Below are positions 4,172 through 63,809 of a stretch of 64,000 nt of DNA, in pieces; the first letter of the stretch is position 1, and each line of letters begins with the position of its first letter. The translations under genes and the position numbers were made by a program. Source of the DNA: Bosea sp. PAMC 26642 (GTDB lineage: Bacteria > Pseudomonadota > Alphaproteobacteria > Rhizobiales > Beijerinckiaceae); the NCBI RefSeq assembly GCF_001562255.1, contig NZ_CP014301.1, positions 930,001 through 994,000 on the forward strand, given 5' to 3'. Under the pieces are notes generated by a model. It ran no database searches. It had not been told where the DNA came from and worked only from the letters and a program-made list of their open reading frames with translations.

Positions 4172-4189
4172 CTGCGTAGTTTCCGACCC
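4172..4189 (+). promoter_or_regulatory. FixJ-like site upstream of PRC-barrel gene
   Basis: The sequence CTGCGTAGTTTCCGACCC is identical over all 18 bases to the site at 11245-11262. The TTTCC half points toward the PRC-barrel start 175 bp downstream. Confidence 0.75.
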
Positions 4190-4363
4190 TATCAACCAAC
4201 GATGGCATGCCGATACCCATTGGACCATCAGAGGGCCCTAAACTCGCCGATCAGCATGGAAGGTTTGATCTGTCTCGGTCCCGTCCGCGGAGCCGGGCAA
4301 GACGTCGGCGCTTGCTGATCCGTCCAGTTTGGATGGCCGTCTTCGTCCAGAAAGGGTTCAGCC

Positions 4364-5131
4364 ATGCTGTTAGCCGCCTCCGCTCTGAAAGGTTATGCCG
4401 TCGAGGCGCAAGACGGCGCGATCGGCACCGTCAAGGATCTGCAGTTCGACGACAGAACCTGGCAGATCCGATGGCTTGTCGTCGATACCGGGAGATGGCT
4501 GACGGAGCGCAAGGTGCTCCTCCATCCTTCGGCGATCGGCAAGATCGACTATGGCGCGCAGACACTGCGGGTCGCGTTGAGCAGGCAGCAGGTGCAAGGC
4601 AGTCCAGCCTTGAGCTCTGATCTGCCCGTTTCGCGGCAGCATGAATCCGACCTCTACGGCTATTATGGCTGGAGCCCTCTTTGGGGTGGCGATCTCTATG
4701 GCTCGGAACTCGCGGGCGCAGGCTTTGGACCGTCGCGCTATTTCGGGAACAAGGAGCTTTACGACGACCTGGGCCTTGGCAACCACGGCGACAGCGGAGA
4801 CCCGCACCTTCGCAGCGTGTCCGAGGTCAAGGGCTATCACGTGCACGCCACCGACGGCGATATCGGCCATGTCGACAATCTCATGATTGACGACGGAAGC
4901 TGGGGCATCCGCTACCTTGTGCTTGACACCAGCAATTGGTGGATGGGCAAGCAGGTACTGATGTCGCCCTATGCCGTCAGCGAGATCAGCTGGTCGCAGG
5001 AGAAGGTCTATCTCGACGTCACGCGCGAACGGGTCAAGGCCAGCCCGGCCTGGGATCCCGCCGCGATGATAAACGACATCTACGAGAAACGCTTGCACGA
5101 GCATTATGGCTGGAGCGGCTACGGCTGGTGA
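4364..5131 (+). CDS. PRC-barrel domain protein, two domains
   Basis: A 255-residue soluble protein with two PRC-barrel domains, at about residues 3-75 (ALKGYAVEAQDGAIGTVKDL, then RWLVVDTGRWL) and 145-225 (EVKGYHVHATDGDIGHVDNL, then RYLVLDTSNWWMGKQVL). The linker and C-terminus carry matching HESDLYGYYGWS / HEHYGWSGYGW Tyr-Gly-Trp segments. PRC-barrels are small beta folds found in photosynthetic reaction centre H subunits and RimM; stand-alone stress-linked forms are common in alphaproteobacteria and their biochemistry is mostly unknown. Preceded at 175 bp by a strong FixJ-like site, so probably induced with the rest of the island. Confidence 0.85.
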   Translation: MLLAASALKGYAVEAQDGAIGTVKDLQFDDRTWQIRWLVVDTGRWLTERKVLLHPSAIGKIDYGAQTLRVALSRQQVQGSPALSSDLPVSRQHESDLYGYYGWSPLWGGDLYGSELAGAGFGPSRYFGNKELYDDLGLGNHGDSGDPHLRSVSEVKGYHVHATDGDIGHVDNLMIDDGSWGIRYLVLDTSNWWMGKQVLMSPYAVSEISWSQEKVYLDVTRERVKASPAWDPAAMINDIYEKRLHEHYGWSGYGW

Positions 5132-5207
5132 TGTTGGGCCCCGCTCGCCGCAATTTCCAAAAGGTCGACGCGGGGCCAGCGCCAGATTGTCAGTCGATCG
5201 CAGGCCG

Positions 5208-5537
5208 TCACGACAGATCGCCGAAGCGCGCTGGTCGTGCTGTCGCGAAGCCCTTGGCTGTCTGGGGTTTGACGAAGAGCGCGACGACCTCGGGATGAGC
5301 GGCGCGGATCTTCTGTTCAATGGCGGCGACCTGATCTTCGATCTGGCCCGAGCGCATGTCGTCGTCGAACGCGATGCTGAGCGCCACGAGAAACTGGTCA
5401 GGCGCCAATTGAACGCTCAGGAGGCCATTGGCTCGCGCGACCCCGCTTTCGGCGGCGACGCTGCCCAGGATGGAGTGGGATAGATCCTGATCGGCCCGCT
5501 CGCCGATCAGAAGACTGTTGTTTTCCTGCGCGATGAA
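5208..5537 (-). pseudogene. CDF transporter C-terminal fragment (partial duplicate)
   Basis: This 110-residue reading frame (from IAQENNSLLIGERADQD to AKGFATARPARFGDLS) is a near copy of the C-terminal cytoplasmic domain of the intact CDF gene at 9618-10595 but lacks all of the membrane segments. Both copies share long identical stretches such as LLIGERADQDLS and PEVVALFVKPQTAKGFA. It joins abruptly at about 5537 to a DUF6894 remnant in another frame, which marks an old recombination junction. It is probably not functional. Confidence 0.7.
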
Positions 5538-5539
5538 CA

Positions 5540-5706
5540 AGTCTGGAATACGCACATGCAAGGGTCTGGCAGGGCGTCTCGCGGGCCATATCTGCCAATG
5601 CGATCAGGGCGGCGTCGTTCGCGGCCTTGGTATGTGGGAATTCGAGGGGCTCATCTCAGCGCTCGGCGCTGTCGCCGATGTCCGTTGTGATCGTGAACTT
5701 AGGCAT
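5540..5706 (-). pseudogene. DUF6894-like gene remnant with in-frame stop
   Basis: From ATG 5706 the minus strand reads MPKFTITTDIGDSAER, then a TGA at 5656-5658, then in the same frame DEPLEFPHTKAANDAALIAL and ADMARE. This is the beginning of a DUF6894-type protein (beta strand, acidic turn, then the AAxDAAxxALxDMARE helix). It is disrupted by the stop and truncated by the junction with the CDF fragment. An intact relative lies immediately upstream on the same strand (5791-6102). Confidence 0.5.
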
Positions 5707-5790
5707 CGTGGGCGGTGCTGTGGTCCCCTGCTTTCCAATGGGGATTCCCGGAAGCTGTTTCGTCAGATGCCAGATGGTCTCAGTTCGCCC

Positions 5791-6457: not shown

Positions 6458-7072
6458 ATGTGGACGTTCAAGATGCTCGCGCTGATGGGGCTCGGCGTCC
6501 TTGCCGGGCTCGCGGCGATCGCTGTCGGGATCTGGATCTATGTCATGAGCACGATCGAGCAGCCGGCCTACGCCTCGGTCACACGCGACGACACTATTGA
6601 GATCCGCGACTATCCTGCGCTCGTCGTGGCGGAGGTGACGCGGCGCGGTGCGCGGCAAGCCGCGGTGCGCGCCGGGTTCTCGCCGCTTGCCGGCTATATC
6701 TTCGCCAAAAGCCGTGAGGGCGAGACCGTCAGCATGACTTCCCCGGTGATCCAGACGCCTACGCAAGCCAACGATCAGAGCTGGCTGATCCGTTTCGTGA
6801 TGCCGTCAAAATACACGCTGGAAACCCTGCCAAAGGCGGCTGGAGAGGATGTGCGCCTGCTAGAGCTGCCGGCTGCGCGCCGCGCCGCGATCCGCTTTTC
6901 AGGCACCGCGACCGATGCGTTGATCGCGCAGAACGAGGCGATGTTGCGGGCCTGGCTGGCGCAGCGCGCGATCGCAATCCAAGGCGCGCCGACCTATGCC
7001 TATTACAACGACCCGTGGACGCCCGGTCCGCTGCGTCGCAATGAAGTGCTGTTCGTCGTAGCGGTGCCTTAG
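6458..7072 (+). CDS. SOUL-family haem-binding protein, membrane-anchored
   Basis: A 204-residue protein with one N-terminal hydrophobic segment (about residues 5-30, LALMGLGVLAGLAAIAVGIW) followed by a SOUL/HBP domain: YASVTRDDTIEIRDYPALVV at the beginning, FxPLAGYIFA and EGETVSMTSPVIQTP in the middle, and PTYAYYNDPWTPGPLRRNEV at the end, all family signatures. SOUL proteins bind haem or porphyrins; in bacteria the exact role is unclear. The membrane anchor places the domain on the periplasmic side or at the membrane face. A half-match to the island regulator site lies 116 bp upstream. Confidence 0.85.
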   Translation: MWTFKMLALMGLGVLAGLAAIAVGIWIYVMSTIEQPAYASVTRDDTIEIRDYPALVVAEVTRRGARQAAVRAGFSPLAGYIFAKSREGETVSMTSPVIQTPTQANDQSWLIRFVMPSKYTLETLPKAAGEDVRLLELPAARRAAIRFSGTATDALIAQNEAMLRAWLAQRAIAIQGAPTYAYYNDPWTPGPLRRNEVLFVVAVP

Positions 7073-7218
7073 CAGGCTGAGGAAAAATCAGCGCTGTGCG
7101 CTGGTCGGTCAGAATTGAGCGCGGTTTGGGTCGGCTCTGATGGCCAAGTGACGATGACGAGCACCTCGGTATTTTATTTTTCGGCAGTTAATCCCAAAGA
7201 GATGCAGCGCAAAGATAC

Positions 7219-7250
7219 AAAAAAGGCCCAGCTTGCGCCGGGCCTTTCAT
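7219..7250 (-). terminator. Rho-independent terminator of groEL
   Basis: On the minus strand an AAGGCCC...GGGCCTT hairpin (arms 7240-7246 and 7223-7229, 10-base loop) is followed by a T run. It lies 25 bp after the groEL stop. Confidence 0.85.
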
Positions 7251-7274
7251 GGAGAGGTGGAGGGATGGGGACGA

Positions 7275-8933
<1,659 letters not shown>

Positions 8934-9341: not shown

Positions 9342-9423
9342 CTTGGATACGGTTCTTCTCCCCGCGCAGCGAGGATCATGTTGGTGCGCGTGATCGATAC
9401 GAGGAAAGACTTTCGGCCGCACA

Positions 9424-9441
9424 GCCTCGGAAACTACGCAA
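9424..9441 (-). promoter_or_regulatory. FixJ-like site upstream of groES-groEL
   Basis: Minus strand TTGCGTAGTTTCCGAGGC, matching the consensus from the second base on. TTTCC points to groES, 170 bp away; no other gene starts downstream of it on this strand. Confidence 0.7.
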
Positions 9442-11171: not shown

Positions 11172-11244
11172 GTCACCTGTTCTCGGATAGCGAGGGGCCC
11201 CGGGCCCGAGACTTGATCCTAAAGCGAAAACCGCCCGGCACTCA

Positions 11245-11262
11245 GGGTCGGAAACTACGCAG
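11245..11262 (-). promoter_or_regulatory. FixJ-like site upstream of DUF992-CDF operon
   Basis: Minus strand CTGCGTAGTTTCCGACCC, the best consensus match together with 4172-4189. It lies 74 bp before the DUF992 start. Confidence 0.8.
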
Positions 11263-17197: not shown

Positions 17198-20100
17198 TCA
17201 TGTCGCTGCGAGCGCCAACCTGGCCAAAGCGGGCAGCGATTTCGAGGCGGTCTTGTGCATGATCGAGGCGCGATGGTTCTCGACCGTTCGCTGACTGATG
17301 CCGAGATCTGCCGCGATGTTCTTGTTGGGGTGCCCGGCGAGAACCAGATCCATGATCTGATGTTGCCGAGCCGTGAGCCCGGCTAGGCTTTTCGTGGCGC
17401 TTGCCTTCCAGGCCGCGCGCTGGCTCGTGTCGCGCGACTGCTCGATCGCGCGCCTCACGCTGCCCAGGAGTTCGGTGCAACTGACCGGCTTCTCGATGAA
17501 ATCCGACGCGCCGGTCTTCATCGCCTCGACCGCCATCGCGACGTCGCTGCTGCCGGTGATCATGATGGCGGGCAGGTGGTGGCCTTGTTCGTTCAGATGG
17601 CGAAGCAACTGGAGTCCCGTCATGCCCGGAAGATAGGCGTCAACCAGGAGGCAATTGCCTTCGCCGGGCGAATAGGCAGCAAGGAAACCCTCGCAGCTTT
17701 CGAAGGCTGCCACCTTATGTCCGGCTTCTTCTAGAACCAGGCGCAATGTGTCCCGGATCTGAGCATCGTCATCGACGATGAATACGACCGGATTTTCAAG
17801 CTCCGGCTCTGGACGTTCTGCTTGGCGGATCGTTCCGGGCGCGACTTTCCTCTCTAGAATGCGCTGGATGGCCTGAGTGACCTCCTCGACCTTGACCGGC
17901 TTGTTAAGGTGCAAACAGTTCAGCAGCTTGATCGCGCGCAAAGTCTCGGTCGAGATGTCTCCGGTGAGGATGATCACCGGCGTTTCGCGGTGATCCCGCT
18001 CGCGCAGTTTCGCTGCGGTCTCAAGCCCATCCATGCCTTTGGGAAGGTTGAAGTCCGACAGGATGACGTCTGGCCGTGATGCGCCGCTCGTCATCAAGGC
18101 GAGCGCTGCATGACCATCTGACGCTGCAAGAACCTGATGGCCCTCATCCTTCAACAAAAGCTCAAGGAGATCGCGGAGTTCTGGGTCGTCTTCGATCAAG
18201 AGTACCGTCCCCGTCAGATGCGGGCTGTCGATGGCAATTGCCATTACATTAGCAAACTTCTCCACGTCCGGAGCACCCCGGACGATCGGACGAAGCAGGG
18301 CAAGTTCTATCGCGAACACGGAGCCCTTGCCGTGGTTGGAACGAACGCTGACGTGATGGTCAAGCAGAACGCCAAGACGCTTGACGATCGATAATCCTAA
18401 GCCGAGACCCAGGCTCCGTTGGCGCGCGGCGTTGTCGAGCTGATGGTACTCGTCGAAGATCGCCTTCAGCTCATCCTTGGGAATGCCGATGCCGGTATCC
18501 CAGATCTCGAGGCTGAGCTTGCCGTGACGCCTCTTGCAGCCCAGCAGCACCTTGCCGGTCTTCGTGTATTTCAACGCGTTGGAGAGGAGGTTTCGGATCA
18601 TCTGCTCCAGCAGATGGGGGTCGCTGCGCACGACGAGGCTCGACGAGACGACCTTGAGCATAAGCCCCTGTGCCTCGGCGTGATACGCGAATTCCTCTCT
18701 CAACCTGTCGAGCAGATCCTTGATAGGGAAATCGACGATTTCGGCATGGACGGTTCCAGCTTCGATCTCGTTGATGTCGAGCAGCGTGTTGAGCATGCTC
18801 GACATCGCGTCCACCGTATCGCTCAGCCGGGCGACAAGCGTCTTTGCCTTGTCGCCCTCGACGACCTTGGCGAGCAAGCCCTGGAGGAGCGCGAGGCCTT
18901 GCAGGGGTTGACGAAGATCATGGCTGGCGGCGGCCAGGAAGCGCGACTTGGCAACGTTGGCGAGGTCGGCCTGTTTGCGCGCGTTGTCCAGCGCGCGCGC
19001 AGCTTTTTTCTGCTCGGTGATGTCGGTGAAGGTGATGACGACGCCTTCGACGCTGTTGTCGTGGGCCCGGTAGGGCATGATGCGGCGCACGAACCAGATG
19101 CCGTTGCGCGCTTCGATGCGACGCTCCAGCGGCGCCAGCGTCTGCAGAACGGTGCGTGAGTCCACCGGCAGGGAGCCATCGACCGCGAGCGAATTCAGGT
19201 CTTCGAGCGGTCGGCCGACATCGGTCGGAATGATCTTGAACAGGGCCTTGGTGGCGGGTGTGAAGAACCTGATCTTGAGATCGCGGTCAAGGAAGACGGT
19301 GGCGACATCGGTGCTGTAGAGCACGTTCTGCAAGTCGTCCGAAGTCGTGCGCTGCCGTTCGAGCGTCTCCTGCAGCTGACCGTTGAGGGCGGTCAGCTCT
19401 TCGTTCAGGGACTGCAGCTCCTCCTTGGAGGTTAGCAGTTCCTCGTTGGTCGACTGGAACTCCTCGTTGACCGAAAGTGCCTCCTCGTTAATCGCGCGCT
19501 GCTCCTCGCTCGAGATCTCGAGATTGCGGATCGCGTCCTTGAGCTCTGCGCGCGTCGCATTGAGCTCTTCTTCGAGCTCTCCAACCCGCGGAGCATCGGT
19601 TGCAGAGGCCTTCTTTATCAGCGCCTTGTCATGTTTGGGGGAGTCGATGAAGGAGATGAGAAAGAGCGTTTCACCCTCATGCTGCAACGGCAGGACGGCG
19701 ATGCTGAAGGCAAAATTCTGAGCGCCGCGACGCGTCCGCATCCCATCTAGGCGAACGGCGTCGTTACTTTGCGTGGCCTTGTGAATCGCGGCCCGCAGCT
19801 TTGTTCTAATACCTTCGGGAGCCATAGCTAGGATGTCATGGCTGGGATGGCCGGCCACGACATGAAGGTAGTGTTCCGTCGGCCCAAGGCTGTAGAGGCA
19901 CTCATAGGTGCCGTTGACCAGCACTGCTGCCGGCGCGTAGGTCTCGATGACGGCGCGTTTGCATAAGTCGGCCAGCGCGCTTTGCCGCGAGACGGCATGG
20001 CCCTGACCCGCCCGCGACGGAATACGGATCGGTTCGCCGGCGCCCCCCAGGAATCGCGCGTCGGAGGGTTGGCTGCCGCCGATATGGCGGTAGATGCGCT

Positions 20101-21613
20101 GTGCCTTGGCGACGACTGCAAACCGGCCCTCGGCGTGACTGACCGTTTCTGAACTGCCGAGCAGCAGCGTTCCGCCTTCCCGCAAGGCAAAGTGAAACAA
20201 GGACAGTATTTTCTTCTGCGCTTCAGCCTGGAGGTAGATCAGCACGTTTCTGCATGAAACCATGTCCAACCGCGAGAATGGCGGATCGGCCAGCAGATCC
20301 TGGACTGTGAACACCACCAGACCGCGCAGTTCAGGCAAGACCCGATAATTCTGACCCTCTTTCTTGAAGAATCGAGCTAATCTCTCGGCCGAGACTGAAT
20401 CCTCGATCGAGTTTGGATAGAGCCCCTCCTGGGCGCTCTGCACCGCATCTGCATCGACGTCCGAGGCGAAAAGCTGAAGCTTGACGTTGCTCTTCGCCGC
20501 CGTGATCTGTTCACGAAAGAGCATCGCGACCGAGTAGGCTTCCTCACCGCTGCTGCAGCCCGCGATCCAGATGCGTAAAGGCCGATCGATAGGCTGCTTG
20601 CTGACCATCTCTGGGATAATGGTCTCCGCCAGAAGCGCGAATGTCTTGGGGTCGCGGAAAAAGCTCGTGACGTTGATCAGGAGATCCTTGGCGAGCAATT
20701 CGCATTCTGCGGGATCGCTTCGGAGCAGATCGAGATAGGCCGAGGTGTTGCCGGCCTCGATCCCAGCCAGCCCACGGCGTCGTTCAATCCGGCGCAGAAG
20801 CGTGCCGGGTTTGTAGAATGTGAAATTATGGCGGGTGTTGGCCTTGAGGACCTCGATGACGTCGGCAAGCCAGGTCTGCTCGGTATCCGTTGCCAAGCGC
20901 TCCATCATGGCCGGGTCGTCATGGATCGTCTTGGCGCTTTCCAGAAGCGCTTCGGGGATCTCGCTGGCGAGAAGCGTGCGATCGACGCTCCCTGTCGCGA
21001 TCGCGCTGCGCGGCATGCCGTCATAGCCGGCTTCCTCCGGGTCCTGCGCCAGGACGATGCCGCCTTTGGATTTGATCGCCTTGATCCCGATGCTGCCATC
21101 CGCGCCGGTCCCAGACAGCACGATGGCAATGCAGCGCGGCCCATATTCTTCCGCTAGTGACTTGAGCAGGAAGTCGATTGGCATGCGAGCCCCATGTCGC
21201 TCTTGGGGCGCTGAAACGTGGAGCGCGCCCCCAACGACCGACAAGGCGGTGCCCGGAGCGATGACATAGAGATGGCCCCGTTCCAGCCGCACGCCATCGC
21301 GTGCCTCCTGCACCGTCAAGGATGTGTGTGAGGACAGCAGTTCCGCGATCATGCTTGGATGATCGGGATCGAGATGCTGCACCAGGACGAAAGCCAAACC
21401 GTCCGTGTCCGGCATGGCGTCGAGCAATTTGCGGCAGGCCTCGAGACCTCCCGCAGAGGCGCCGATGCCGACGACGATGGGGCCGCCTGACTGCATTGCC
21501 TCGTCTGCCCCCGACGGAGCGCGTGCCATAGGCTGCTTTTCCGGTGTGCCATCGTGATGGTTGCGATCCGGCATTGAAATGGCTCTTTCTGGCGCGCGCG
21601 CATGCGCTGCCAT
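17198..21613 (-). CDS. CheB-CheR-PAS-histidine kinase-REC-REC-FixJ HTH hybrid
   Basis: A 1471-residue soluble protein. Domains in order: CheB-like methylesterase (about 45-235: GIGASAGGLE, HLDPDHPS, LSGTGADGS), CheR-like methyltransferase (250-510: IAGCSSGEEAYSVA), Glu-rich coiled coil (about 690-770), PAS (770-885), HisKA (ASHDLRQPLQGL) and HATPase (LLSNALKY, DTGIGIPKDE), a receiver (VLLIEDDPEL, DVILSDFNL), a second receiver (VFIVDDDAQI, LLVDAYLPGM, FIEKPV) and a LuxR/FixJ HTH (LTARQHQIMDLVLAGHPNKN, then GISQRTVENHRASIM). The last two domains are a complete FixJ. No transmembrane segment and no clear FixL haem histidine. ATG 21574 is an alternative start. It is the best candidate for the regulator of the recurring 18-bp sites. 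Confidence 0.9.
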   Translation of the reverse strand: MAAHARAPERAISMPDRNHHDGTPEKQPMARAPSGADEAMQSGGPIVVGIGASAGGLEACRKLLDAMPDTDGLAFVLVQHLDPDHPSMIAELLSSHTSLTVQEARDGVRLERGHLYVIAPGTALSVVGGALHVSAPQERHGARMPIDFLLKSLAEEYGPRCIAIVLSGTGADGSIGIKAIKSKGGIVLAQDPEEAGYDGMPRSAIATGSVDRTLLASEIPEALLESAKTIHDDPAMMERLATDTEQTWLADVIEVLKANTRHNFTFYKPGTLLRRIERRRGLAGIEAGNTSAYLDLLRSDPAECELLAKDLLINVTSFFRDPKTFALLAETIIPEMVSKQPIDRPLRIWIAGCSSGEEAYSVAMLFREQITAAKSNVKLQLFASDVDADAVQSAQEGLYPNSIEDSVSAERLARFFKKEGQNYRVLPELRGLVVFTVQDLLADPPFSRLDMVSCRNVLIYLQAEAQKKILSLFHFALREGGTLLLGSSETVSHAEGRFAVVAKAQRIYRHIGGSQPSDARFLGGAGEPIRIPSRAGQGHAVSRQSALADLCKRAVIETYAPAAVLVNGTYECLYSLGPTEHYLHVVAGHPSHDILAMAPEGIRTKLRAAIHKATQSNDAVRLDGMRTRRGAQNFAFSIAVLPLQHEGETLFLISFIDSPKHDKALIKKASATDAPRVGELEEELNATRAELKDAIRNLEISSEEQRAINEEALSVNEEFQSTNEELLTSKEELQSLNEELTALNGQLQETLERQRTTSDDLQNVLYSTDVATVFLDRDLKIRFFTPATKALFKIIPTDVGRPLEDLNSLAVDGSLPVDSRTVLQTLAPLERRIEARNGIWFVRRIMPYRAHDNSVEGVVITFTDITEQKKAARALDNARKQADLANVAKSRFLAAASHDLRQPLQGLALLQGLLAKVVEGDKAKTLVARLSDTVDAMSSMLNTLLDINEIEAGTVHAEIVDFPIKDLLDRLREEFAYHAEAQGLMLKVVSSSLVVRSDPHLLEQMIRNLLSNALKYTKTGKVLLGCKRRHGKLSLEIWDTGIGIPKDELKAIFDEYHQLDNAARQRSLGLGLGLSIVKRLGVLLDHHVSVRSNHGKGSVFAIELALLRPIVRGAPDVEKFANVMAIAIDSPHLTGTVLLIEDDPELRDLLELLLKDEGHQVLAASDGHAALALMTSGASRPDVILSDFNLPKGMDGLETAAKLRERDHRETPVIILTGDISTETLRAIKLLNCLHLNKPVKVEEVTQAIQRILERKVAPGTIRQAERPEPELENPVVFIVDDDAQIRDTLRLVLEEAGHKVAAFESCEGFLAAYSPGEGNCLLVDAYLPGMTGLQLLRHLNEQGHHLPAIMITGSSDVAMAVEAMKTGASDFIEKPVSCTELLGSVRRAIEQSRDTSQRAAWKASATKSLAGLTARQHQIMDLVLAGHPNKNIAADLGISQRTVENHRASIMHKTASKSLPALARLALAAT

Positions 21614-21710: not shown

Positions 21711-21728
21711 ATAAGTATTTTCCGAGCC
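21711..21728 (+). promoter_or_regulatory. FixJ-like site upstream of lone receiver
   Basis: ATAAGTATTTTCCGAGCC, the T-variant of the element also seen at 63792. It points to the receiver gene 232 bp downstream, the longest spacing in the set. Confidence 0.5.
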
Positions 21729-21792
21729 TTAATGTTCCGTTTTTTCTGATTTAATCTGAGATAGACGATTGATTAAATCCACTACGCAATAT

Positions 21793-21959: not shown

Positions 21960-22334
21960 ATGATGAAGCTTCGCGTGCTCGTGATCGAGGATGAACCCAT
22001 CATTGCGACGCTGCTCGCCGAAGTTCTGATGGAACTCGGCCATGTGGTGAGCGGGGTTGCGGCGACGGAGGCCGAGGCAATACTGGCGGTGAGTCGGTGT
22101 CGGCCGGACCTGATGATCGTCGACGCCCGCCTGCGCCAGGGCAGCGGCGTGGCGGCAGTCAGCGACATTCTCAAGGACGGCTTCATTCCGCATGTCTTCG
22201 TCAGCGGCGATCGGCTGACCAGAGCCGCCTTGAGCCCGGACGCGATCGTGCTCCAGAAGCCTTTCCAGGAGCCGGATTTGGTCCGGGCCATCGCAAGAGC
22301 GCTCAGCGCGGCCAAACTTCGTCAGCCCGCTTGA
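21960..22334 (+). CDS. Single-domain response regulator
   Basis: A 124-residue receiver with no output domain: acidic pocket VLVIEDEPIIATLLAEVLME, phosphoacceptor Asp in DLMIVDARLRQGSG, and C-terminal VLQKPFQEPDLVRAIARAL with the conserved Lys. Such lone receivers relay or drain phosphate in phosphorelays. It is divergent from the hybrid kinase and preceded by a FixJ-like site, so it may be a feedback partner of that kinase. The start may be ATG 21960 or 21963. Confidence 0.88.
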   Translation: MMKLRVLVIEDEPIIATLLAEVLMELGHVVSGVAATEAEAILAVSRCRPDLMIVDARLRQGSGVAAVSDILKDGFIPHVFVSGDRLTRAALSPDAIVLQKPFQEPDLVRAIARALSAAKLRQPA

Positions 22335-25099: not shown

Positions 25100-25258
25100 C
25101 TTTGGCTCCTGTGTGTTCGGATAAAGTGGCTCTGCCACTGCGCTAAGCGGCAGGCTCCGAAAGCTCGGCCGACCACAATCCAAACCGAGCGCTGAAGTGC
25201 CTGCCGGTCGGATCATCCAGCCCAACTCAGGCTAGGCGGGATGACGTCCGTGGCGACA

Positions 25259-25276
25259 GGGTCGGAAAACACGCAT
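25259..25276 (-). promoter_or_regulatory. FixJ-like site (weaker) upstream of BON-oleate hydratase
   Basis: Minus strand ATGCGTGTTTTCCGACCC; it differs from the consensus at three positions. It points to the BON start 160 bp away. Confidence 0.55.
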
Positions 25277-26822: not shown

Positions 26823-26891
26823 CTTTGCATACGATCTCTTTGCCGCGGCGATATCGATTGAGATGGTAGGCTTTCTAAACGCCGTGAGAGA

Positions 26892-26909
26892 GCGTCGGAA
26901 AGTACTCAT
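26892..26909 (-). promoter_or_regulatory. FixJ-like site upstream of cytochrome c pair
   Basis: Minus strand ATGAGTACTTTCCGACGC; four differences from the consensus, all seen at positions variable in other copies except the C after GTA. It lies 70 bp before the chosen cytochrome start. Confidence 0.55.
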
Positions 26910-32720: not shown

Positions 32721-32830
32721 GGCAGGCTCCTGCGCTTGTTGGGGTGACGATCTGGTGGCGCGCCACCGAGCTAGGGCGGATCAACCGCCATTCCGTTGCG
32801 CACAAGATCAGCGCCGTGCCGTCACGGGCA

Positions 32831-32848
32831 GCCCCGGAAACTACGCAG
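32831..32848 (-). promoter_or_regulatory. FixJ-like site upstream of Adh-metal operon
   Basis: Minus strand CTGCGTAGTTTCCGGGGC; identical to the consensus over the first 15 bases. It lies 111 bp before the Adh start. Confidence 0.75.
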
Positions 32849-35414: not shown

Positions 35415-35498
35415 CGTCAGTCCTCGACGGGGTGACGGGCTCCGACATGAAGATCCCATCCAGGGGCGCAGGCTGAGCCAGGCGCGGCACGATCAACA

Positions 35499-35516
35499 GC
35501 CTCGGAAACTACCCAA
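35499..35516 (-). promoter_or_regulatory. FixJ-like site upstream of Adh-Aldh operon
   Basis: Minus strand TTGGGTAGTTTCCGAGGC. Points to the dehydrogenase start 85 bp away. A second site in the opposite orientation follows at 35623, making a divergent control region. Confidence 0.75.
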
Positions 35517-35622: not shown

Positions 35623-35640
35623 ATGGGTAATTTCCGAGCC
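35623..35640 (+). promoter_or_regulatory. FixJ-like site upstream of 62-aa protein
   Basis: ATGGGTAATTTCCGAGCC on the plus strand, 119 bp before the ATG at 35759 and 106 bp from the opposite-facing site at 35499. Confidence 0.65.
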
Positions 35641-35758
35641 TTCCGGCGCGTCACCGTTGGCCGCTACCGTCGTGAAGGTTCCCCCCGGTCGGAAGGACGA
35701 TCCTTCGCGGGCAGGGACATGGGAACGCCGGGCCCCGCCGGCATCGAAGGATACGCAC

Positions 35759-41612: not shown

Positions 41613-41836
41613 CTGCCTGTGTCTCGCTGTAATAAGCGCCGTATTGGAAAAACCTTAGTTTATCGGTTAATCGATTAGCCGGCGTATAATATAAATCCAC
41701 TAGCTGCGTGCGTGGTCAGTGTTAGCAGAGCTCGATGATTGAGACGTGGATCGGAATATACTCACATCTCAGTGCAAAGCGGCGGCATAGTGAGCATTGT
41801 TCAGTTTTTTGATCACGAGATCGACATAAGGCGCGC

Positions 41837-41861: not shown

Positions 41862-41879
41862 TAGAGTAGTTTCCGAACC
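41862..41879 (+). promoter_or_regulatory. FixJ-like site upstream of PstB-PhoU-PPDK-like operon
   Basis: TAGAGTAGTTTCCGAACC on the plus strand, 97 bp before the PstB-like start. Confidence 0.72.
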
Positions 41880-41975
41880 TCCCTTTTGCTGATCGACATC
41901 GGGTAGCGTCCCTCCGTGGGCTAGCCGGTGATGGTCGCCCGCACATCCGCGTCAGCGACATGAGGATCGGACGAC

Positions 41976-54144: not shown

Positions 54145-56766
54145 TCAGAGTCGGAATCTACGCAGACGGATCAGGTGTTTTGCCGGCGCATGATGTGGCG
54201 TGGCGCGTCGCTTTTGTCTGACGCTGTCGCCAAGGGCGAGCGGCTTCAGCAACTCCACGGCTATGAGGTACAGGACCGCGATGGCGCCGACTGCCGCCAG
54301 CACGCCGGGCGGCGGCAGGACGAAGCCGAACCACGTGCCGAGAGGCGTGAAGGGCAGCGCCAGGGCGACTAGCAGCGCCGTCAGCGACGTCGCGGCGAGG
54401 ATCGGGCGCGGCCAATCGGCCCAGGGCCGGCCATTGGTGCGGATGATGAAGATGACGAGGATCTGCGTCGTCATCGACTCGAGGAACCAGGCTGTGCGGA
54501 ACTCCGCCGGCGAAGCCTCGAAGACCCAGATTAGCATGCCGAAGGTCACCAGATCGAACACGGATGAGAGCAACCCGAGAACGCCGGCGAAACGCAGCAG
54601 CCCGCCGATATCCCAGATTTGGGGCTTGGCGGTCGTCTCCGGGCGCACCGTATCGAATGGGATGCCGATTTCGGAGAGGTCGTAGAGCAGGTTGTTGAGC
54701 AGGATTTGCGTCGGGAGCATCGGCAGGAAGGGCAGGGCGACCGAGGCCACCGCCATCGAGATCATGTTGCCGAAATTGGAGCTCGCGCCCATCCGGACAT
54801 ATTTCAGGATGTTAGCGAAGGTCCGGCGCCCTTCGTCGATCCCGTCGGCGACCACGGACAGATCGGAATCGAGCAGGATCATGTCGGCGGCCGCTTGGGC
54901 GACGCCGGTCGCGCCCTCGACCGAGAGCCCGACATCGGCCGCCCTGAGGGCCGGCGCATCGTTGATGCCGTCGCCGAGATAGCCGACCACCGCACCCCTG
55001 GCCTGCAGCGCCTTGATGATCCTGAACTTCTGATCGGGCGCGAGCCGGCCATAGGCATCCACAGACCTCACCTGCACCGCCAGGGCATCATGGCTGAGGC
55101 CGGCGATGTCGGCGCCGCTGAGCACCTTCTCGGTGCGCAGTCCGACCAGCCCCGCCAGTCTCCTGACCACGACAGGATCGTCGCCAGACAGTATCTTCAC
55201 GGAAATACCGGCCGCAGCCAGCCGCGCGATGGCGGCGGCGGCCGTTGCCTTGGGCGGATCGGCGAAGGCGCACAGACCCTCGAACACCAGATCGGATTCG
55301 TCATCCACGGTGAGGTCCCGCGCCGCGCCCGACCAGCGCCGCGAGGCGACGGCGATGCTGCGGAGCCCATCCTGAGCCAGCGCGCGCACCTGCGCGATCG
55401 CGGCAGCGCGGGCCGCCTCGTCCAATGGTCCGGTTTCTGCCCCCATGCGCCGCAGCGTGCAGCGTTCCAGAATGGCCTCCGGCGCGCCCTTGGCGATGAG
55501 CGTGACGCTCCCGGCCCCCGATGCCAGGACGGAGCCGATGCGGCGCGAGAAGTCGAAGGCGCGCCGCCCCGCCAGAGTCGAGCCCTTGGCTGCGTCCGGG
55601 CTGCCTTTGATCAGGGCTGCGTCCAGCGCGCCGCGGTCGCCGCCCAGTTCGGCGGCGATGGCTGCGAGCCTCGCGGGGCCTGCGTCGTCGCCGCCGCTTG
55701 GATCGAGGCTGCGCGCCAGCGTGATCTCGGCCGCGGTCAACGTGCCGGTCTTGTCGGTGCACAGAACGGTCATCGCGCCGAGATCGTGGATGGCGGCCAG
55801 CCGCTTCACGATGACCTTGCGACGCGCCATGCGCATGGCGCCGCGCGACAAGGTCACGGTCGTGATCATCGGCAGAAGCTCCGGCGTCAGGCCAACAGCC
55901 AGGGCGACGGCGAAGAGCACTGAATCCAGGACTTCCCGCCCGAGCATCACGCGCGCGGCAAGAACGACGACGACGAGCCCCATCGTGGCGCGCGCGACAA
56001 CGAGCCCGAACTGGTGCAGATCGCGCTCGAAGGGCGACGGCGTGGCGCCCTGCGCCAGCGCCGCCGCAGCCGAGCCGAACAGCGTCGCCCGCCCCGTACC
56101 CACAGCCAGCGCCAGCGCTTCGCCGGTCTGGGCCACGGAGCCTCTGAACAGGGCGTTGGCGGCCTCGGCGGCGCTGGCCGCCGCGCTTGCCCCCGCCCGC
56201 TTCTCGACCGGATAGGGCTCGCCGGTCAGCGCCGCTTCGCCGGCGGTGAAGGCGGTGCTTTCAAGGATCAGCGCATCGGCCGGGATGATGTCGCCGGCCC
56301 GCACGCGCAAAAGATCGCCCGGCACGACCGTGTCGACATCGACTTGGACGAAGGCGCCGTCGCGCTTGACTTCGGCTTTCAGCGCCACCGAGCGGCGCAG
56401 CGCTTCGGCCGCGTTCCGGGCCTGGCCTTCCTGAACCGTATCGAGACCGATCGAGAGCGCGAGGATCGCGACGATGATCGAGCCGCCGACCGTGTCGCCC
56501 GTCGCCACCGAGACGATGCCCGCTGCCAGGAGGATCAGCGACAGCGGCTCCAGCATGCGGCGGCAAACGGCGCGAAAACGGCTGTCCGTCTTGGCGGCCG
56601 CGTCGCTGTTGGGCCCGTATTGGCGAACGCGCCGCGCAGCTTCATCAGTTGAAAGCCCGCCAGCGCCGCAGGCGAGCGTCGTGCACAACTGATCGGGCGA
56701 CAAGGTCCAGAAGGTCGCAAGGGCGTCGCCGGAAGCGGGTGGTTCGGGCGTCTTCGCATCCGTCAT
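54145..56766 (-). CDS. Mg2+-type P-type ATPase (MgtA/MgtB-like)
   Basis: An 873-residue P3B-type ATPase: N-terminal cation-ATPase domain (LSTDEAARRVRQYGPNSDA), actuator region FTAGEAALTGEPYPVEK, phosphorylation VLCTDKTGTLTAAEITLARS, hinge YLGDGINDAPALRAADVGLS and C-terminal membrane helices with SSNFGNMISMAVASVALPFL, the MgtA signature. It imports Mg2+ down its gradient in known members. It follows ackA by 12 bp. The C-terminal end reaches into the PFOR-operon control region. Cation choice here is inferred only from family. Confidence 0.9.
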   Translation of the reverse strand: MTDAKTPEPPASGDALATFWTLSPDQLCTTLACGAGGLSTDEAARRVRQYGPNSDAAAKTDSRFRAVCRRMLEPLSLILLAAGIVSVATGDTVGGSIIVAILALSIGLDTVQEGQARNAAEALRRSVALKAEVKRDGAFVQVDVDTVVPGDLLRVRAGDIIPADALILESTAFTAGEAALTGEPYPVEKRAGASAAASAAEAANALFRGSVAQTGEALALAVGTGRATLFGSAAAALAQGATPSPFERDLHQFGLVVARATMGLVVVVLAARVMLGREVLDSVLFAVALAVGLTPELLPMITTVTLSRGAMRMARRKVIVKRLAAIHDLGAMTVLCTDKTGTLTAAEITLARSLDPSGGDDAGPARLAAIAAELGGDRGALDAALIKGSPDAAKGSTLAGRRAFDFSRRIGSVLASGAGSVTLIAKGAPEAILERCTLRRMGAETGPLDEAARAAAIAQVRALAQDGLRSIAVASRRWSGAARDLTVDDESDLVFEGLCAFADPPKATAAAAIARLAAAGISVKILSGDDPVVVRRLAGLVGLRTEKVLSGADIAGLSHDALAVQVRSVDAYGRLAPDQKFRIIKALQARGAVVGYLGDGINDAPALRAADVGLSVEGATGVAQAAADMILLDSDLSVVADGIDEGRRTFANILKYVRMGASSNFGNMISMAVASVALPFLPMLPTQILLNNLLYDLSEIGIPFDTVRPETTAKPQIWDIGGLLRFAGVLGLLSSVFDLVTFGMLIWVFEASPAEFRTAWFLESMTTQILVIFIIRTNGRPWADWPRPILAATSLTALLVALALPFTPLGTWFGFVLPPPGVLAAVGAIAVLYLIAVELLKPLALGDSVRQKRRATPHHAPAKHLIRLRRFRL
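54148..54165 (-). promoter_or_regulatory. FixJ-like site upstream of PFOR operon
   Basis: Minus strand CTGCGTAGATTCCGACTC: one change in the core (T to A) and one near the end. It lies 83 bp before the MFS start; it is also 20 bp beyond the end of the P-ATPase gene. Confidence 0.72.
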
Positions 56767-59447: not shown

Positions 59448-59537
59448 CGATGCTCGTCCCAGCTTTTCCGGCAGCTTGATCGCCGCGACCACGCCCTCGC
59501 GAGCGCCACCCTAGTGCAGCACCGGGCGGGGCGAGCA

Positions 59538-59555
59538 GGGGTGGATTCTACCTAG
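59538..59555 (-). promoter_or_regulatory. FixJ-like site (divergent) upstream of Pta-AckA operon
   Basis: Minus strand CTAGGTAGAATCCACCCC. GTAG and TCC are kept, other core positions differ. It lies 91 bp before the chosen start. Confidence 0.55.
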
Positions 59556-59590
59556 CGTGGCCCGGTCGTCCGCCCGCCGCGGTCCCGGCG

Positions 59591-60697
59591 TCACGTGGCG
59601 ATGACCGCCGAAACGGGCCGCCGCGGCGCATAAGGCAGCACAGGCCCATAGCCGAAACGCATCACGAGATCGGGGCGCCGGCCCGGGAAGCCGATCAGCG
59701 CAGCCAGCTCCGGCCGCAGGGCCGGGACCTCGACCGGCTGATTGATAAAGGCGGTCTTGAGTCCAAGCGCAGTCGCCTGCAGCGCGAAACGCTGACAGGC
59801 GCGGCCGACGGCGACCCAATGCTCAGGATCCTCCCGCCCGCCTATGAACACCGCAAGGCCGGCGGATGTGCGGACTTGCCTTGCATAGGCATCATTCTGC
59901 GATTGCGCATTCGACAGCCAGTCGAAGGCGTAAGGCCCGAGCCAGTCGGGAAGCGCGGGGTTGCCGCTCGCGACGCTGTAGAGACCGTCGCCGGTCTCGA
60001 GCGCGCGGCGCGGATTGAAACGCAGCCAGGATTTGAGCTCGGTGACGAAGGCCGCATCGGCCATTTGCGCGCTGTTGCCGGCGACGACGAGATCGCGAAC
60101 GCGGTCCATGCCCGGCCGGTCGGTGATCAGCACCAACGCGACGGTTGGGCTGCCGGCGGTTTCGGCCAGCAGACGCAGGTTGGCCGGGCTGACAGCACGC
60201 CCGCCAAATGCGGCGCGGGTGGACTGGCGCAGAGGGATGGCGTCGAAGAGATCCGAAGCCTGCGCCGGCGCCGCCCCATGTGAAAACACAATCGAGCCCC
60301 CGCCTGCGGCGTCGAAGACCGCGTCTCCCCGGCACCCTTGCGCCGCCCCGGCCAGGACGAGGTTTTCAGCGGCGCAGCCCAGGCTGACGAACAGGTGGTG
60401 ATCGTCGGGATCGACCGCCGGCGTGCGACGGGCCAGATCCGGGCTGATCGTGATCAGGTCCGGCGCGACCGTAAAGCGCCATGGCTGCGTGTTGTGGCTG
60501 TTAGGCGCCAGCGTCGCATAGCGGATCAGCTCATGCGCATCAGGTCGGGACGACAGCGCTGCCCTGGCGGCCTGGGTCGCGGCAGTATAGTCCGATGCCG
60601 ATCCCATGCGCGATGCCGACATCCACGCCGCTGCGCCGGCGCCTAGCGCCGCGAGACCACCGCCAATCAGAATATTCCGCCGGTTCATTGTTATCAT
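59591..60697 (-). CDS. Acg-like nitroreductase-family protein, exported
   Basis: A 368-residue protein with a twin-arginine-like leader (NRRNILIGGGLAALGAGAAA) and a duplicated nitroreductase fold: RYATLAPNSHNTQPWRFTVA near the N-terminus and QRFALQATALGLKTAFINQP near the C-terminus. It resembles Acg (Rv2032) proteins, which are part of the mycobacterial dormancy regulon and may store flavin. The gene follows cydB after about 100 bp on the same strand and may be read from the cyd promoter. Confidence 0.8.
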   Translation of the reverse strand: MITMNRRNILIGGGLAALGAGAAAWMSASRMGSASDYTAATQAARAALSSRPDAHELIRYATLAPNSHNTQPWRFTVAPDLITISPDLARRTPAVDPDDHHLFVSLGCAAENLVLAGAAQGCRGDAVFDAAGGGSIVFSHGAAPAQASDLFDAIPLRQSTRAAFGGRAVSPANLRLLAETAGSPTVALVLITDRPGMDRVRDLVVAGNSAQMADAAFVTELKSWLRFNPRRALETGDGLYSVASGNPALPDWLGPYAFDWLSNAQSQNDAYARQVRTSAGLAVFIGGREDPEHWVAVGRACQRFALQATALGLKTAFINQPVEVPALRPELAALIGFPGRRPDLVMRFGYGPVLPYAPRRPVSAVIAT

Positions 60698-60798: not shown

Positions 60799-61803
60799 TT
60801 AGTGATAGCCGCCCTCGGCCTTCACCTTGCCTCGAAAGGTCCAGTACACGAAGGCGGTGTAGAATAGGATCATCGGCAGGAGAAAGCTGACCCCGATCAG
60901 CACGAAGATGTGCGAGGCCGGCGTCGCCGCCACGTCCCAGATCGTCAGGCTCGGCGGCACGAGATAAGGGTAGTTCGAGATCGCGAGCCCTAGGAAGCAC
61001 AACACGAAGATCGCTATGGTGAAAGCGAACGGCGTGAACTCGTGTTTGCCGTGCAGCCGTTTCCACGCCATCCAGCCGCAGAACGCCGTCAGCAGCGGGA
61101 ACGGCAAGAGCCAGACCAGGTTGGAGAACGAGAACCAGCGCTCCGCGATGCGCGGATGGGCATAGGGCGTCCAGAGCGAGACGAGGACGGCGAAGGCGAG
61201 CAGGCCGATCAGCAGGGCCTTGGCCTGGCCGCGCGCCCGGTCGGCGACCGACCCTTCGGTCTTGTAGATCAGCCAGGTCGCGCCCAGCAGTGCGTAGCCG
61301 ACGACGACGCCCGCCCCGCACATCAGCGTGAAGGGCGTGAACCAGTCGAAGGGGCCGCCGGCGAACTGCCTGTCGACGACGGTGATGCCCTGGATCATGC
61401 CGCCCAGGATCAGTCCCTGCGAGAACGCGGCCAGCGTCGAGCCGAGCCAGAAGGCGAGGTCCCAGATCTGGTGCTTCGGCTTGGCGACCCAGCGGAACTC
61501 GAAGGCGACGCCGCGGAAGATCAGTGCCAGCAGCATCAGCGTCACCGGCAGGTAGAAGGCCGGCATGATGATGGCGTAGGCCGTCGGGAACGCGACCCAC
61601 AGCCCGCCGCCGCCGAGCACCAGCCAGGTCTCGTTGCCGTCCCAGAACGGCGCGACCGAGTTCATCATCTGGTCGCGTTCGCGCTCGTCCTTCGTTGTCG
61701 GGAAGAGGATTGCGATGCCGAGGTCGAAGCCGTCGAGCACGACATAGAGCATTACGGCGGTGCCGATCAGCACGGCCCAGATCACGGGGAGATACCATTC
61801 CAT
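60799..61803 (-). CDS. cydB: Cytochrome bd oxidase subunit II
   Basis: A 334-residue membrane protein with about eight helices; MEWYLPVIWAVLIGTAVMLY and VLDGFDLGIAILFPTTKDER are the family beginning, WDGNETWLVLGGGGLWVAFP the middle signature. It pairs with CydA in a quinol-oxidising, non-proton-pumping terminal oxidase of the inner membrane with high oxygen affinity. It follows cydA by 12 bp. Confidence 0.95.
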   Translation of the reverse strand: MEWYLPVIWAVLIGTAVMLYVVLDGFDLGIAILFPTTKDERERDQMMNSVAPFWDGNETWLVLGGGGLWVAFPTAYAIIMPAFYLPVTLMLLALIFRGVAFEFRWVAKPKHQIWDLAFWLGSTLAAFSQGLILGGMIQGITVVDRQFAGGPFDWFTPFTLMCGAGVVVGYALLGATWLIYKTEGSVADRARGQAKALLIGLLAFAVLVSLWTPYAHPRIAERWFSFSNLVWLLPFPLLTAFCGWMAWKRLHGKHEFTPFAFTIAIFVLCFLGLAISNYPYLVPPSLTIWDVAATPASHIFVLIGVSFLLPMILFYTAFVYWTFRGKVKAEGGYH

Positions 61804-61815
61804 AGCGGGTTCTCC

Positions 61816-63246
61816 TCAGGTCTGGGGCTGGATGCGGTCGTCGCCGGGACGGCCGTCGCCGAACAGGTCGGACGCCGGCGCCTGCGCCGCCTTGAGCGGC
61901 CGGCTCGACGGCTGCTCGGGCGGGTCCTCGCTGGTGATCTCGTCCGGCCCCTTGTCGATCAAGCGGTTGATCAGGACGATGCCTGCCGAGAAGACGACGC
62001 AGTAGACGCAGACGAACAGCGCCAGCGAAATCGCGACCTGCGCGGTGGTGACCGGCGAGATCGCGTCCTTGGAACGCAGAACGCCGGTGGCGATCCAGGG
62101 CTGGCGGCCGACCTCGGTGACGAACCAGCCCGCCAGGATGGCGATGAAGCCCAGCGGCCAAGTGTACTGCGCGACCCAGAGCCAGCGTCTCTCTTCGAAG
62201 ACGGCGCTTTTCCACCACAGGATCGCGCCGAGCCAGCCGAAGGCGATCATGAACATGCCGATGCCGACCATGATGCGGAACCCGAAGAACGGGATCTTAA
62301 CCGGCGGGCGATCCTGCACCGCGAAATCGTTTAGGCTCGGAAATAGCGCGTCCATGCTACCATGGGTCATCAGGCTTGCGAGGCCCGGGATCGAAACCTC
62401 GAAGCGATTGACGCCTGCAACCTCATCTGGCCAGGCGAAGAGCACCAGTGGGGCGGGCTTAGACGAATCCCAATGCGCCTCGATAGCGGCGAGCTTGGCC
62501 GGCTGGTACTTGGCGGTGTCCACGCCGTGGCTATGGCCGATCAGCGCCTGCGCGGGTGCTGTGATCGCGATCATCAAGATCGCCATCCGCACCATCGTCT
62601 TCGCCGCCTCGGTGCGGTGGCCGACCATGAGATGGCGCGCGCCGGTCGCCAGCACGACGAAGGCGGTGGTCAGGTAGGCCGCCGTCATCATGTGCATGAA
62701 GCGCATCGGGAAGGTGGGATTGAAGATGATCTTCATCCAGTCGAGCGGATAGGCGATGCCGTCGCGCATCTCGTGCCCGGTTGGGAACTGCATCCAGCTG
62801 TTGGCGGACAAAATCCAGAAGCCTGAGAGCGCAGTGCCGCACGCCACGATCACCGCCGACAGGAAATGTAGCCAGGGCGGCACGCGCTTCCAGCCGAACA
62901 GCATGACACCGAGGAACGACGCCTCGAGGAAGAAGGCGGTCAGCACCTCGTAGCCGATGAGCGGGCCAATGACGTTACCGACCACGACGGAGAAGCGGCT
63001 CCAGTTCGTGCCGAACTGATAGGAAAGCACGATGCCAGACACGACGCCCATGGCGAATGAGACCGCGAAGATCTTGGTCCAGAAGCGGGCGAGCAGGTGA
63101 TATTTCTTGTCGTCGGTCTTCAGCCACATCCCCAGCAGCGTCGCGATATAGGCCGATAGCCCGATCGTAAAGGCCGGGAACACGATGTGGAACGAGATGG
63201 TGAAGGCGAACTGGATTCGCGAAAGCAGGAACGCGTCGATCGTCAT
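61816..63246 (-). CDS. cydA: Cytochrome bd oxidase subunit I (CIO-type)
   Basis: A 476-residue subunit with nine or so helices. Haem and quinol motifs: RIQFAFTISFHIVFPAFTIG, ILSANSWMQFPTGHEMRDG, FPMRFMHMMTAAYLTTAFVV with ligand residues, and FVTEVGRQPWIATGVLRSKD. The Q-loop is short, as in cyanide-insensitive oxidases. The first gene of cydAB(-Acg-like), with a FixJ-like site 96 bp upstream. Provides respiration at low oxygen. Confidence 0.95.
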   Translation of the reverse strand: MTIDAFLLSRIQFAFTISFHIVFPAFTIGLSAYIATLLGMWLKTDDKKYHLLARFWTKIFAVSFAMGVVSGIVLSYQFGTNWSRFSVVVGNVIGPLIGYEVLTAFFLEASFLGVMLFGWKRVPPWLHFLSAVIVACGTALSGFWILSANSWMQFPTGHEMRDGIAYPLDWMKIIFNPTFPMRFMHMMTAAYLTTAFVVLATGARHLMVGHRTEAAKTMVRMAILMIAITAPAQALIGHSHGVDTAKYQPAKLAAIEAHWDSSKPAPLVLFAWPDEVAGVNRFEVSIPGLASLMTHGSMDALFPSLNDFAVQDRPPVKIPFFGFRIMVGIGMFMIAFGWLGAILWWKSAVFEERRWLWVAQYTWPLGFIAILAGWFVTEVGRQPWIATGVLRSKDAISPVTTAQVAISLALFVCVYCVVFSAGIVLINRLIDKGPDEITSEDPPEQPSSRPLKAAQAPASDLFGDGRPGDDRIQPQT

Positions 63247-63341
63247 CGCAAATCTCCGACCGTCTCGGCCTGATCCTCAGCGAGCGCGGCCGCTGCAACG
63301 TCGCCGTTTGAACTTATCTCTCCCGGTAGGACGACCGGATA

Positions 63342-63359
63342 GGTTCGGAATCTACTCAC
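63342..63359 (-). promoter_or_regulatory. FixJ-like site upstream of cydAB
   Basis: Minus strand GTGAGTAGATTCCGAACC, 96 bp before cydA. Shares the AGATTCCGA core with the PFOR-operon site. Confidence 0.7.
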
Positions 63360-63373
63360 GCGAGTTGAATTGA

Positions 63374-63655
63374 GCCGTAGAGATCTGCAAGGCGGGGCCG
63401 AAGGCAGAGGATGCCGCTCCGCCTGATCCGGAGGGCGCGAGTGGACCTGACGCATCGTCGGGCATTGGCTGGCATGGCCGGGCGTTAGGGAGCGATGAAG
63501 GTGGACCGCCGGACCGGGCACAGCGCAACTTCACCGACGAGGACAGCCGCATCCTGCCCGCACGCCGCTTCATGCAGGGCTACAGTGGCCAAATCGCAGT
63601 CGATGCCGGCCACCAGATCATCGTGGCCCACCCGATGGTGACCAATTCCTTTTAA
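63374..63655 (+). pseudogene. IS1182-type transposase remnant
   Basis: A reading frame with no valid start encodes GGPPDRAQRNFTDEDSRILP then MQGYSGQIAVDAGHQIIVAH, the central DDE-region signature of IS1182-family transposases. It begins after a stop at 63371-63373 and ends at TAA 63653-63655 shortly after the conserved segment. No terminal inverted repeats are visible. It marks an old insertion at the right border of the island. Confidence 0.75.
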
Positions 63656-63791
63656 GTTCGAGCATAGTTCCTTTATATTTACCGTTAAATTTAAAATCAT
63701 AACCCAGAAATTTAATATTAAATGATAAAAACGATTGGATCGCGATTTCAAGGAAATATATAATAACCGCGAAAATTGCGATTAAATATCC

Positions 63792-63809
63792 CTGAGTATT
63801 TTCCGATCC
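63792..63809 (+). promoter_or_regulatory. FixJ-like site upstream of second Usp gene
   Basis: CTGAGTATTTTCCGATCC, in an AT-rich stretch (63660-63800), 94 bp before the ATG at 63903. Confidence 0.65.

Follow-up and report, generated by a model that had tools for sequence, protein, structure and literature searches.

For the response regulator FixJ, a binding consensus selected in vitro, GTAGTTTCCC, is quoted in PMC4999443. Among the genes induced by FixLJ is fixT, whose receiver product inhibits FixL (PMC7078487), and in Rhodopseudomonas palustris FixJ reportedly represses nitrogenase genes when it is unphosphorylated (PMC13327599). Low-oxygen-linked gene sets rich in universal stress proteins are described for the lxa locus of Burkholderia cenocepacia and the DosR regulon of Mycobacterium tuberculosis (PMC6127331). 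Here we describe a window, that is, a whole stretch of 64,000 nucleotides (G000:C1:930001-994000 of the 5.51-Mb genome of Bosea sp. PAMC 26642), in which a sequence-only reading had noticed fourteen copies of an 18-bp FixJ-like element. The repeated element is a real and strong feature that marks promoters of an island of stress and low-energy genes. The island very probably represents a self-contained regulon, switched by its own fusion of a sensor with a FixJ-type protein. No publication describing this regulator or motif was recognised in a literature search that had most subscription papers outside its scope.

The candidate regulator is a hybrid sensor kinase-response regulator of 1458 amino acids encoded at window positions 17198..21574 on the minus strand, with the Pfam domain order CheB-CheR-PAS-HisKA-HATPase-REC-REC-GerE. 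Its C-terminal 200 amino acids align over nearly their full length with FixJ 5xso, the best PDB match (E 1.1e-38). Like FixJ, it combines a receiver with a GerE output domain (both found by Pfam), and the site core, GTAGTTTCC, is that of the selected consensus, so the likeness to FixJ sites claimed by the sequence-only reading is correct (PMC4999443). FixJ is separate from its kinase FixL, whereas here the receiver-GerE part is fused to its own kinase; no FixL-type sensor was recognised, and one PDB sequence search with the PAS region gave no PAS or FixL match, which is a weak negative. The right half of the site differs as well, CGANSCT here versus CCCTTA in the fixK site of S. meliloti (PMC4999443). 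Both NCBIfam models nearest to the protein are narrowly missed: the FixJ model scores 246.2 against a cut-off of 255, and near_NosP_CTERM, of the NahK/ErcS-family hybrid kinases, scores 361.6 against 400. The kinase core and first receiver are alike in these NosP-associated kinases and in the present regulator, which is extended N-terminally by CheB and CheR and C-terminally by REC-GerE.

The signalling module is intact. Across 14 aligned regulators (the one of the window and 13 from other genomes, two of them from G212), the histidine of HDLRQPLQ and the aspartate and lysine of both receivers are invariant. The genome contains eight GerE matches, one of them in the window, and three FixJ-like receiver-GerE proteins, among which the island protein alone has the ISxRT[IV]ExxRA of FixJ. 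Its recognition segment reads SQRTVENHRA, compared with SPRTIEVYRA in FixJ and SEITVKIHRG and SEVTVKVHRA in the other two (SE[IV]TVKxHR). Judged by its domains, the product of 17198-21574 is the likely binder of all sites, and we consider the regulator identified with high probability. The idea that one FixJ-type regulator governs the island, put forward by the sequence-only reading, is thus well supported, but that reading overlooked that the regulator lies inside the window and is fused to its kinase, with no FixL/FixJ pair.

All fourteen copies of the element are present where they had been noted, and the copies at 4172 and 11245 share all 18 bp. Alignment and column information place the motif core, the 18-mer TGVGTANWTTCCGANSCT, one base further along, at positions 2-19 of the frame used before: a T follows directly 3' of the original 18-mer in all fourteen copies, and its first base carries almost no information. 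None of the fourteen sites deviates in seven columns (G, T, T, C, C, C and T), and the flanks are for the most part uninformative. Even the original consensus, with up to three mismatches, finds 7 matches in the window where 0.03 are expected. With a weight matrix built from the 14 noted sites, 13 score at least 24 bits and still at least 22 bits when each is left out of its own matrix. The site at 59538 reaches 15.4 bits and, left out, only 7.4. Because a Markov background yields about 5 matches per window at 8 bits or more (mean 0.4 at 12 bits or more, ten sequences of the same length), this site alone is not significant; it does have the TANNNT described below at the correct distance. An additional site at 41747 on the minus strand (20.3 bits), before a usp gene, had been missed. 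Chance origin of the element is rejected by the window expectation, the Markov background, the confinement within the genome and a control with permuted matrices (the last two are given below). Nor is there a sign of a riboswitch or another RNA feature: nothing in Rfam matches above the gathering scores, and no tRNA was found.

By our gene calls the window is 89% coding, and the strong sites are intergenic with the exception of 54147, which falls within the last codons of an upstream P-type ATPase gene. The earlier statement that every copy lies between genes therefore holds for 13 of 14, and for the site at 26891 it depends on moving the start of a cytochrome c gene from 26909, the choice of the first caller, to 26771. 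With the gene starts chosen here, all fourteen sites are oriented toward the next start codon, as had been claimed. A distance of 70-175 bp to that codon, given for 13, applies to 12, since 21711 lies at 230 and 59538 at 44.

A scan of the whole genome and of related genomes, with a count in coding and intergenic DNA, had been suggested as a check of the element. Scanning the genome with TRVGTANWTTCCGANSCT placed all 10 exact and all 5 one-mismatch matches within genome positions 934173-1001487, a single stretch of 67 kb that reaches about 7.5 kb beyond the window. This points to an island regulon and not to a genome-wide one. Six matches have two mismatches, two of them in the island region (954100, intragenic, and 1002581) and four elsewhere. 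At up to three mismatches there are 199 matches in the genome, compared with 257 for a reversed control pattern (mismatch classes pooled); those with three mismatches are scattered, and part of them was listed. Two sites lie to the right of the window, at genome positions 1001470 and 1002581, and face a PAS/histidine-kinase-like gene (about 400 bp off) and a cytochrome b561-like gene, both named by eye. We treated as background one match to the strict 15-mer used below, at 4746291, which has only 13.9 bits as an 18-mer, and two matches near 5285 kb (14.6 and 16.7 bits) that overlap integrase-like and helicase-like frames, again named by eye. Within the window, a 16.6-bit match at 24100 sits inside an MCRA gene. 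The near-perfect sites are thus all in the island.

The sites recur in relatives and track the fusion gene there. We counted the strict 15-mer GTANWTTCCGANNCT in 297 evenly drawn genomes of the order, and nine have at least four strict sites (G000 13, G188 23, G212 20, G266 13, G282 11, G198 7, G165 7, G027 4 and G137 4). In each of the nine there is the fusion gene, whole or in part. The fusion, taken at a minimum of 53% identity, is found in 13 genomes, namely the same nine minus G282 and plus G052, G004, G070, G203 and G206. At least four strict sites thus occur in 8 of 13 genomes with the fusion versus 1 of the 284 others (Fisher p 8e-12; up to about 10 candidates were scored per genome, a fusion could escape notice among the 284, and G167, discussed below, was counted with them). 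The one genome is G282, where a frame of 118 amino acids at C320:5990-6325, 60% identical to the C-terminus, is tentatively read as a gene cut by the contig end, with a site at C320:5775. Eight strict sites occur in G052, G070, G203 and G206 combined, and 7 of these are within about 15 kb of the regulator on its contig. Beyond the fusion carriers and G282, no genome has more than 2 strict sites. From the presence of sites and this co-occurrence we infer that the fusion protein binds GTAGTTTCC-type sites. In G212, two copies of the regulator (L113 and L114) are found on different contigs, with sites around each.

Loci can also be chosen without reference to the motif. From an alignment of the kinase-to-GerE region (14 rows) we derived two peptide patterns, both in the kinase and not in the DNA-binding part; among the matches listed, 545 of 589 encode a relative, and the best 80 loci were used. 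Most of these are labelled as Alphaproteobacteria (L140, for instance, is from Xanthobacter autotrophicus DSM 432); Paraburkholderia, Caballeronia and Dyella occur too, as does one bin with the label Acidobacteria. They overlap partly with the genome set (L173 is very likely from G165). At 20 bits or more, the window matrix finds 215 sites in 72 of these 80 loci (1.43 Mb). On the same sequences, 60 column-permuted matrices give a mean of 0.5 and a maximum of 13 sites, and the reversed matrix gives 0. Related switches with the same element are present in many other bacteria. Standalone FixJ-like loci (L083-L098, 57 kb) are without a site in 15 of 16 cases. The one with a site, L086 (G001:C8:146173-146784), is a standalone FixJ-like frame of 192 amino acids, 51% identical and without a fused kinase, with a 27.1-bit site just downstream; this may be the same system in split form.

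Plasmids carry the system too. Searched at the protein level (E 1e-100), 72,556 plasmids yielded 22 records; of the genes overlapped by these matches, 10 bear the name 'chemotaxis protein CheB' and 5 'CheR family methyltransferase'. Five of the 22 plasmid regions, from Methylocystis, Caballeronia, Phyllobacterium, Methylocapsa and Acidiphilium, were examined; they were not used for the matrix. They contain 22 sites of at least 19 bits, all outside listed genes. The gene tables are themselves incomplete, and some features of L210, L213 and L214 were left out of the comparison; checked by eye, none of the latter contains any of the 22 sites. The next listed gene on the same strand is 80-245 bp away for 19 of the 22 and more than 600 bp away for the other three. 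The 19 nearby genes encode sigma-70 family, Spy, CsbD, DUF3309 (two), Dps, general stress, Usp, BON, HAD phosphatase, response regulator, CYTH/CHAD, oleate hydratase, ActD and glycine-zipper proteins, three hypothetical proteins and AdhP, the last followed by phosphoketolase and acetate kinase. Transposase genes are present in all five regions. On the Methylocapsa plasmid pRX1 (L213, 17508-21788), the regulator is annotated as two genes, with CheB separate from CheR-to-GerE.

The sites stand at a fixed distance from a second element. Among 208 non-redundant external sites, TANNNT lies at offset 41 from motif position 1 in 60, at offset 42 in 40 and at offset 40 in 12, against a background median of 1 over offsets 20-103; apart from columns adjoining the motif it is the one further strong signal. 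In the window, TA is found at offsets 40-42 in 12 of 15 sites. We take TANNNT to be the sigma70 -10 element, by the consensus of the latter. The 18-mer would then span about -53 to -36 and be centred near -44, a clear -35 hexamer being absent, and this position suggests a class II activator arrangement.

We favor the following sequence of events. The CheB-CheR-PAS-kinase-REC-REC-FixJ-type protein would sense a stress or energy signal and autophosphorylate, and the phosphate would be passed to its own FixJ module. The protein would then bind TGVGTANWTTCCGANSCT, centred near -44 and adjoining the -35 region, at sigma70-type promoters whose -35 is poor, and would recruit the polymerase in the class II activator mode; activation seems a better fit than repression. 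One of the targets would be the divergently encoded small receiver, which probably serves feedback or relay.

Besides the fusions that may have been missed among the 284 genomes, several observations weigh against such a self-contained switch. Eight of the 80 best loci are without a site, four of them being contigs shorter than 5 kb. The strong site at L086 means that the fusion may not be the sole binder of the motif. G004 has the fusion, yet its single strict site is on another contig and near the gene there is one site of 19.6 bits. G167 has a fusion of 49% identity and no strict site genome-wide, nor any of at least 17 bits in the 15 kb read. Three of the 15 window sites lack TA at offsets 40-42. 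Finally, in the 6700-7600 stretch immediately upstream of the regulator (loci with complete left flanks), 41 of 44 sites face away from it; in most loci the regulator apparently does not target itself. As a separate observation, the diverged fusion of G167 (L116, G167:C26) may have a different binding site.

Three other explanations have to be considered. The island might be run by a separate FixJ-like regulator as a classical microaerobic FixLJ regulon. The genes at genome positions 1377620 and 2595075 do encode FixJ-like receiver and GerE domains, the motif resembles the FixJ consensus GTAGTTTCCC (PMC4999443), and L086 in G001 demonstrates that a standalone FixJ-like gene with an adjoining site exists. 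Nevertheless, FixJ-like receiver-GerE matches (E 1e-20) are found in 215 of the 297 genomes, but at least four strict sites in nine, each with the fusion or a piece of it. Further, the 3-kb loci around 1377620 and 2595075 contain no site at 17 bits, and the near-perfect sites are all in the island, so this explanation is very unlikely. Just as hard to defend, and in our opinion most improbable, is the notion that the element is a promoter signature, such as a -35-like element belonging to an alternative sigma factor. It would account for the fixed spacing to the -10-like TANNNT, and a few targets are of the sigma-70 family (4 of 146, and one on the plasmids). The 18-mer, however, greatly exceeds a -35 element in length and information, resembles a FixJ site and tracks the fusion gene in the 297 genomes, and no sigma gene was recognised among the window proteins scanned, which are part of the whole.

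The remaining explanation shares the binder with the favored one and differs in the outcome: the fusion protein would bind the sites and repress, or alternate between repression and activation. The nitrogenase-gene repression reported for unphosphorylated FixJ in R. palustris (PMC13327599) offers a precedent. We regard it as unlikely, though less so than the other two, as the sites occupy positions upstream of the promoter core (about -53 to -36) and cover neither the -10 nor the start.

What the island regulon does can be estimated from its targets. A scored frame followed 165 of the 215 external sites, and 174 non-redundant targets of at least 45 amino acids were obtained. We tallied 146 of them (14 from the window, 132 external), which are the first 150 minus two regulator frames (L132, L145) and two long frames at locus starts (L152, L153). 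As a control, 146 genes were sampled at random among the 645 of L119-L184 that no site precedes, and 4 of them, being regulator pieces, were removed, leaving 142; each tally covers its 25 commonest families. Among targets, Pfam finds Response_reg 16, BON 10, CsbD 9, OmpA 7, Ferritin 6, PRC 6, sigma-70 region 2 4, Usp 3, LTXXQ 3 and DUF3309 3. In the control the commonest family is MFS_1 with 4, followed by Response_reg 3 and OmpA, PRC and DUF3309 with 2 each; BON, CsbD, Ferritin and Usp are outside its 22 families with at least two members, hence at most one each. Receiver, BON, CsbD, ferritin/Dps, PRC and OmpA families are thus commoner among targets than among neighbouring genes, and over half of the 146 targets belong to none of the named families.

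The enrichment of stress-type families points to stress rather than to oxygen alone. Since the programme of this genome includes cyd, adh, PFOR and pta-ack, a shortage of energy or of oxygen may act as well, and the whole looks like stress protection combined with low-energy metabolism. Of the microaerobic or energy-starvation programme suggested by the sequence-only reading, the low-energy genes stand. Oxygen may be the signal, but the PAS region gave no PAS or FixL match in the PDB search (the weak negative mentioned above), and the target families suggest stress. The gene set is, like the lxa locus and the DosR regulon, rich in universal stress proteins, whereas a FixK/Anr-type protein is named as candidate regulator of lxa (PMC6127331).

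The single-domain receiver deserves separate mention. Its gene (21960..22334, plus strand; 124 amino acids, Response_reg) is divergent from that of the regulator, and a site faces it. A homologue outside the regulator gene is found in 31 of the 80 best loci (33 matches minus two, L123 and L193, inside the regulator), and in 15 a site faces it. As a likely direct target of a FixJ-type regulator it resembles fixT (PMC7078487). It differs from FixT in that its nearest NCBIfam model is the PhyR family, below the cut-off, and that it has one cysteine in place of the four-cysteine Fe-S motif of the Caulobacter FixT type. By analogy, it may be a feedback element, or else a relay partner.

Downstream frames were chosen by codon score, in place of an earlier choice by length that had mixed and antisense frames. 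Site 1 (4173..4190, plus, 29.6 bits) faces a PRC-barrel gene (4364-5131), site 2 (9423..9440, minus, 28.3 bits) faces groES-groEL (8967-9254 and 7275-8921, named by eye) and site 3 (11244..11261, minus, 29.6 bits) a DUF992 gene (10635-11171). Site 4 (21712..21729, plus, 27.6 bits) belongs to the small receiver gene. Site 5 (25258..25275, minus, 24.9 bits) precedes a triple-BON gene (24449-25099), and site 6 (26891..26908, minus, 26.4 bits) cytochrome c genes. Two alcohol dehydrogenase genes follow, an AdhP-like one (31686-32720) faced by site 7 (32830..32847, minus, 24.4 bits) and a zinc-dehydrogenase-like one (34350-35414) faced by site 8 (35498..35515, minus, 27.4 bits). Site 9 (35624..35641, plus, 26.4 bits) faces a gene of 62 amino acids (35759-35947). 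The added site (41747..41764, minus, 20.3 bits) faces a Usp gene (40761-41612, Pfam Usp), and site 10 (41863..41880, plus, 26.1 bits) a gene at 41976-42848.

Site 11 (54147..54164, minus, 25.8 bits) faces 52761-54065, an MFS transporter by eye, which is followed on the same strand by 51118-52761, PFOR (47450-51121) and 46458-47450. The weak site 12 (59537..59554, minus, 15.4 bits) faces pta (57981-59492, of a pta-type family) and then 56779-57984, acetate kinase by eye. Site 13 (63341..63358, minus, 27.7 bits) faces cydA-cydB (61816-63246 and 60799-61803), and site 14 (63793..63810, plus, 27.9 bits) a Usp-like gene at 63903 that is cut by the window end and whose continuation, in L027, is 32% identical to the Usp gene of the window. 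The groES-groEL, cytochrome c, alcohol dehydrogenase, PFOR, pta-ack and cydAB genes named by the sequence-only reading are therefore all among the targets, some of them by eye. At 59591-60688, 3' of cydAB and in the same direction, there is a gene for an Acg-family FMN oxidoreductase (Rv3131 type).

Taken together, we propose, with belief and doubt evenly balanced, that a mobile stress-survival cassette is at hand, in which one polypeptide would sense, relay phosphate and activate the surrounding genes through its own FixJ-type site. Regulator and sites would have spread on chromosomes and plasmids through Alphaproteobacteria and into Beta- and Gammaproteobacteria as a stress regulon apart from PhyR-EcfG, with CheB and CheR acting as methylation-type input or memory. 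Plasmid regulators so far named 'chemotaxis protein CheB' can now be given a predicted function and DNA site, along with a promoter geometry and a list of targets. With its sites clustered around its own gene, a two-component system made of one protein lends itself to the study of how a regulator and its regulon travel together, and it offers a testable plasmid-borne source of stress and low-energy tolerance.

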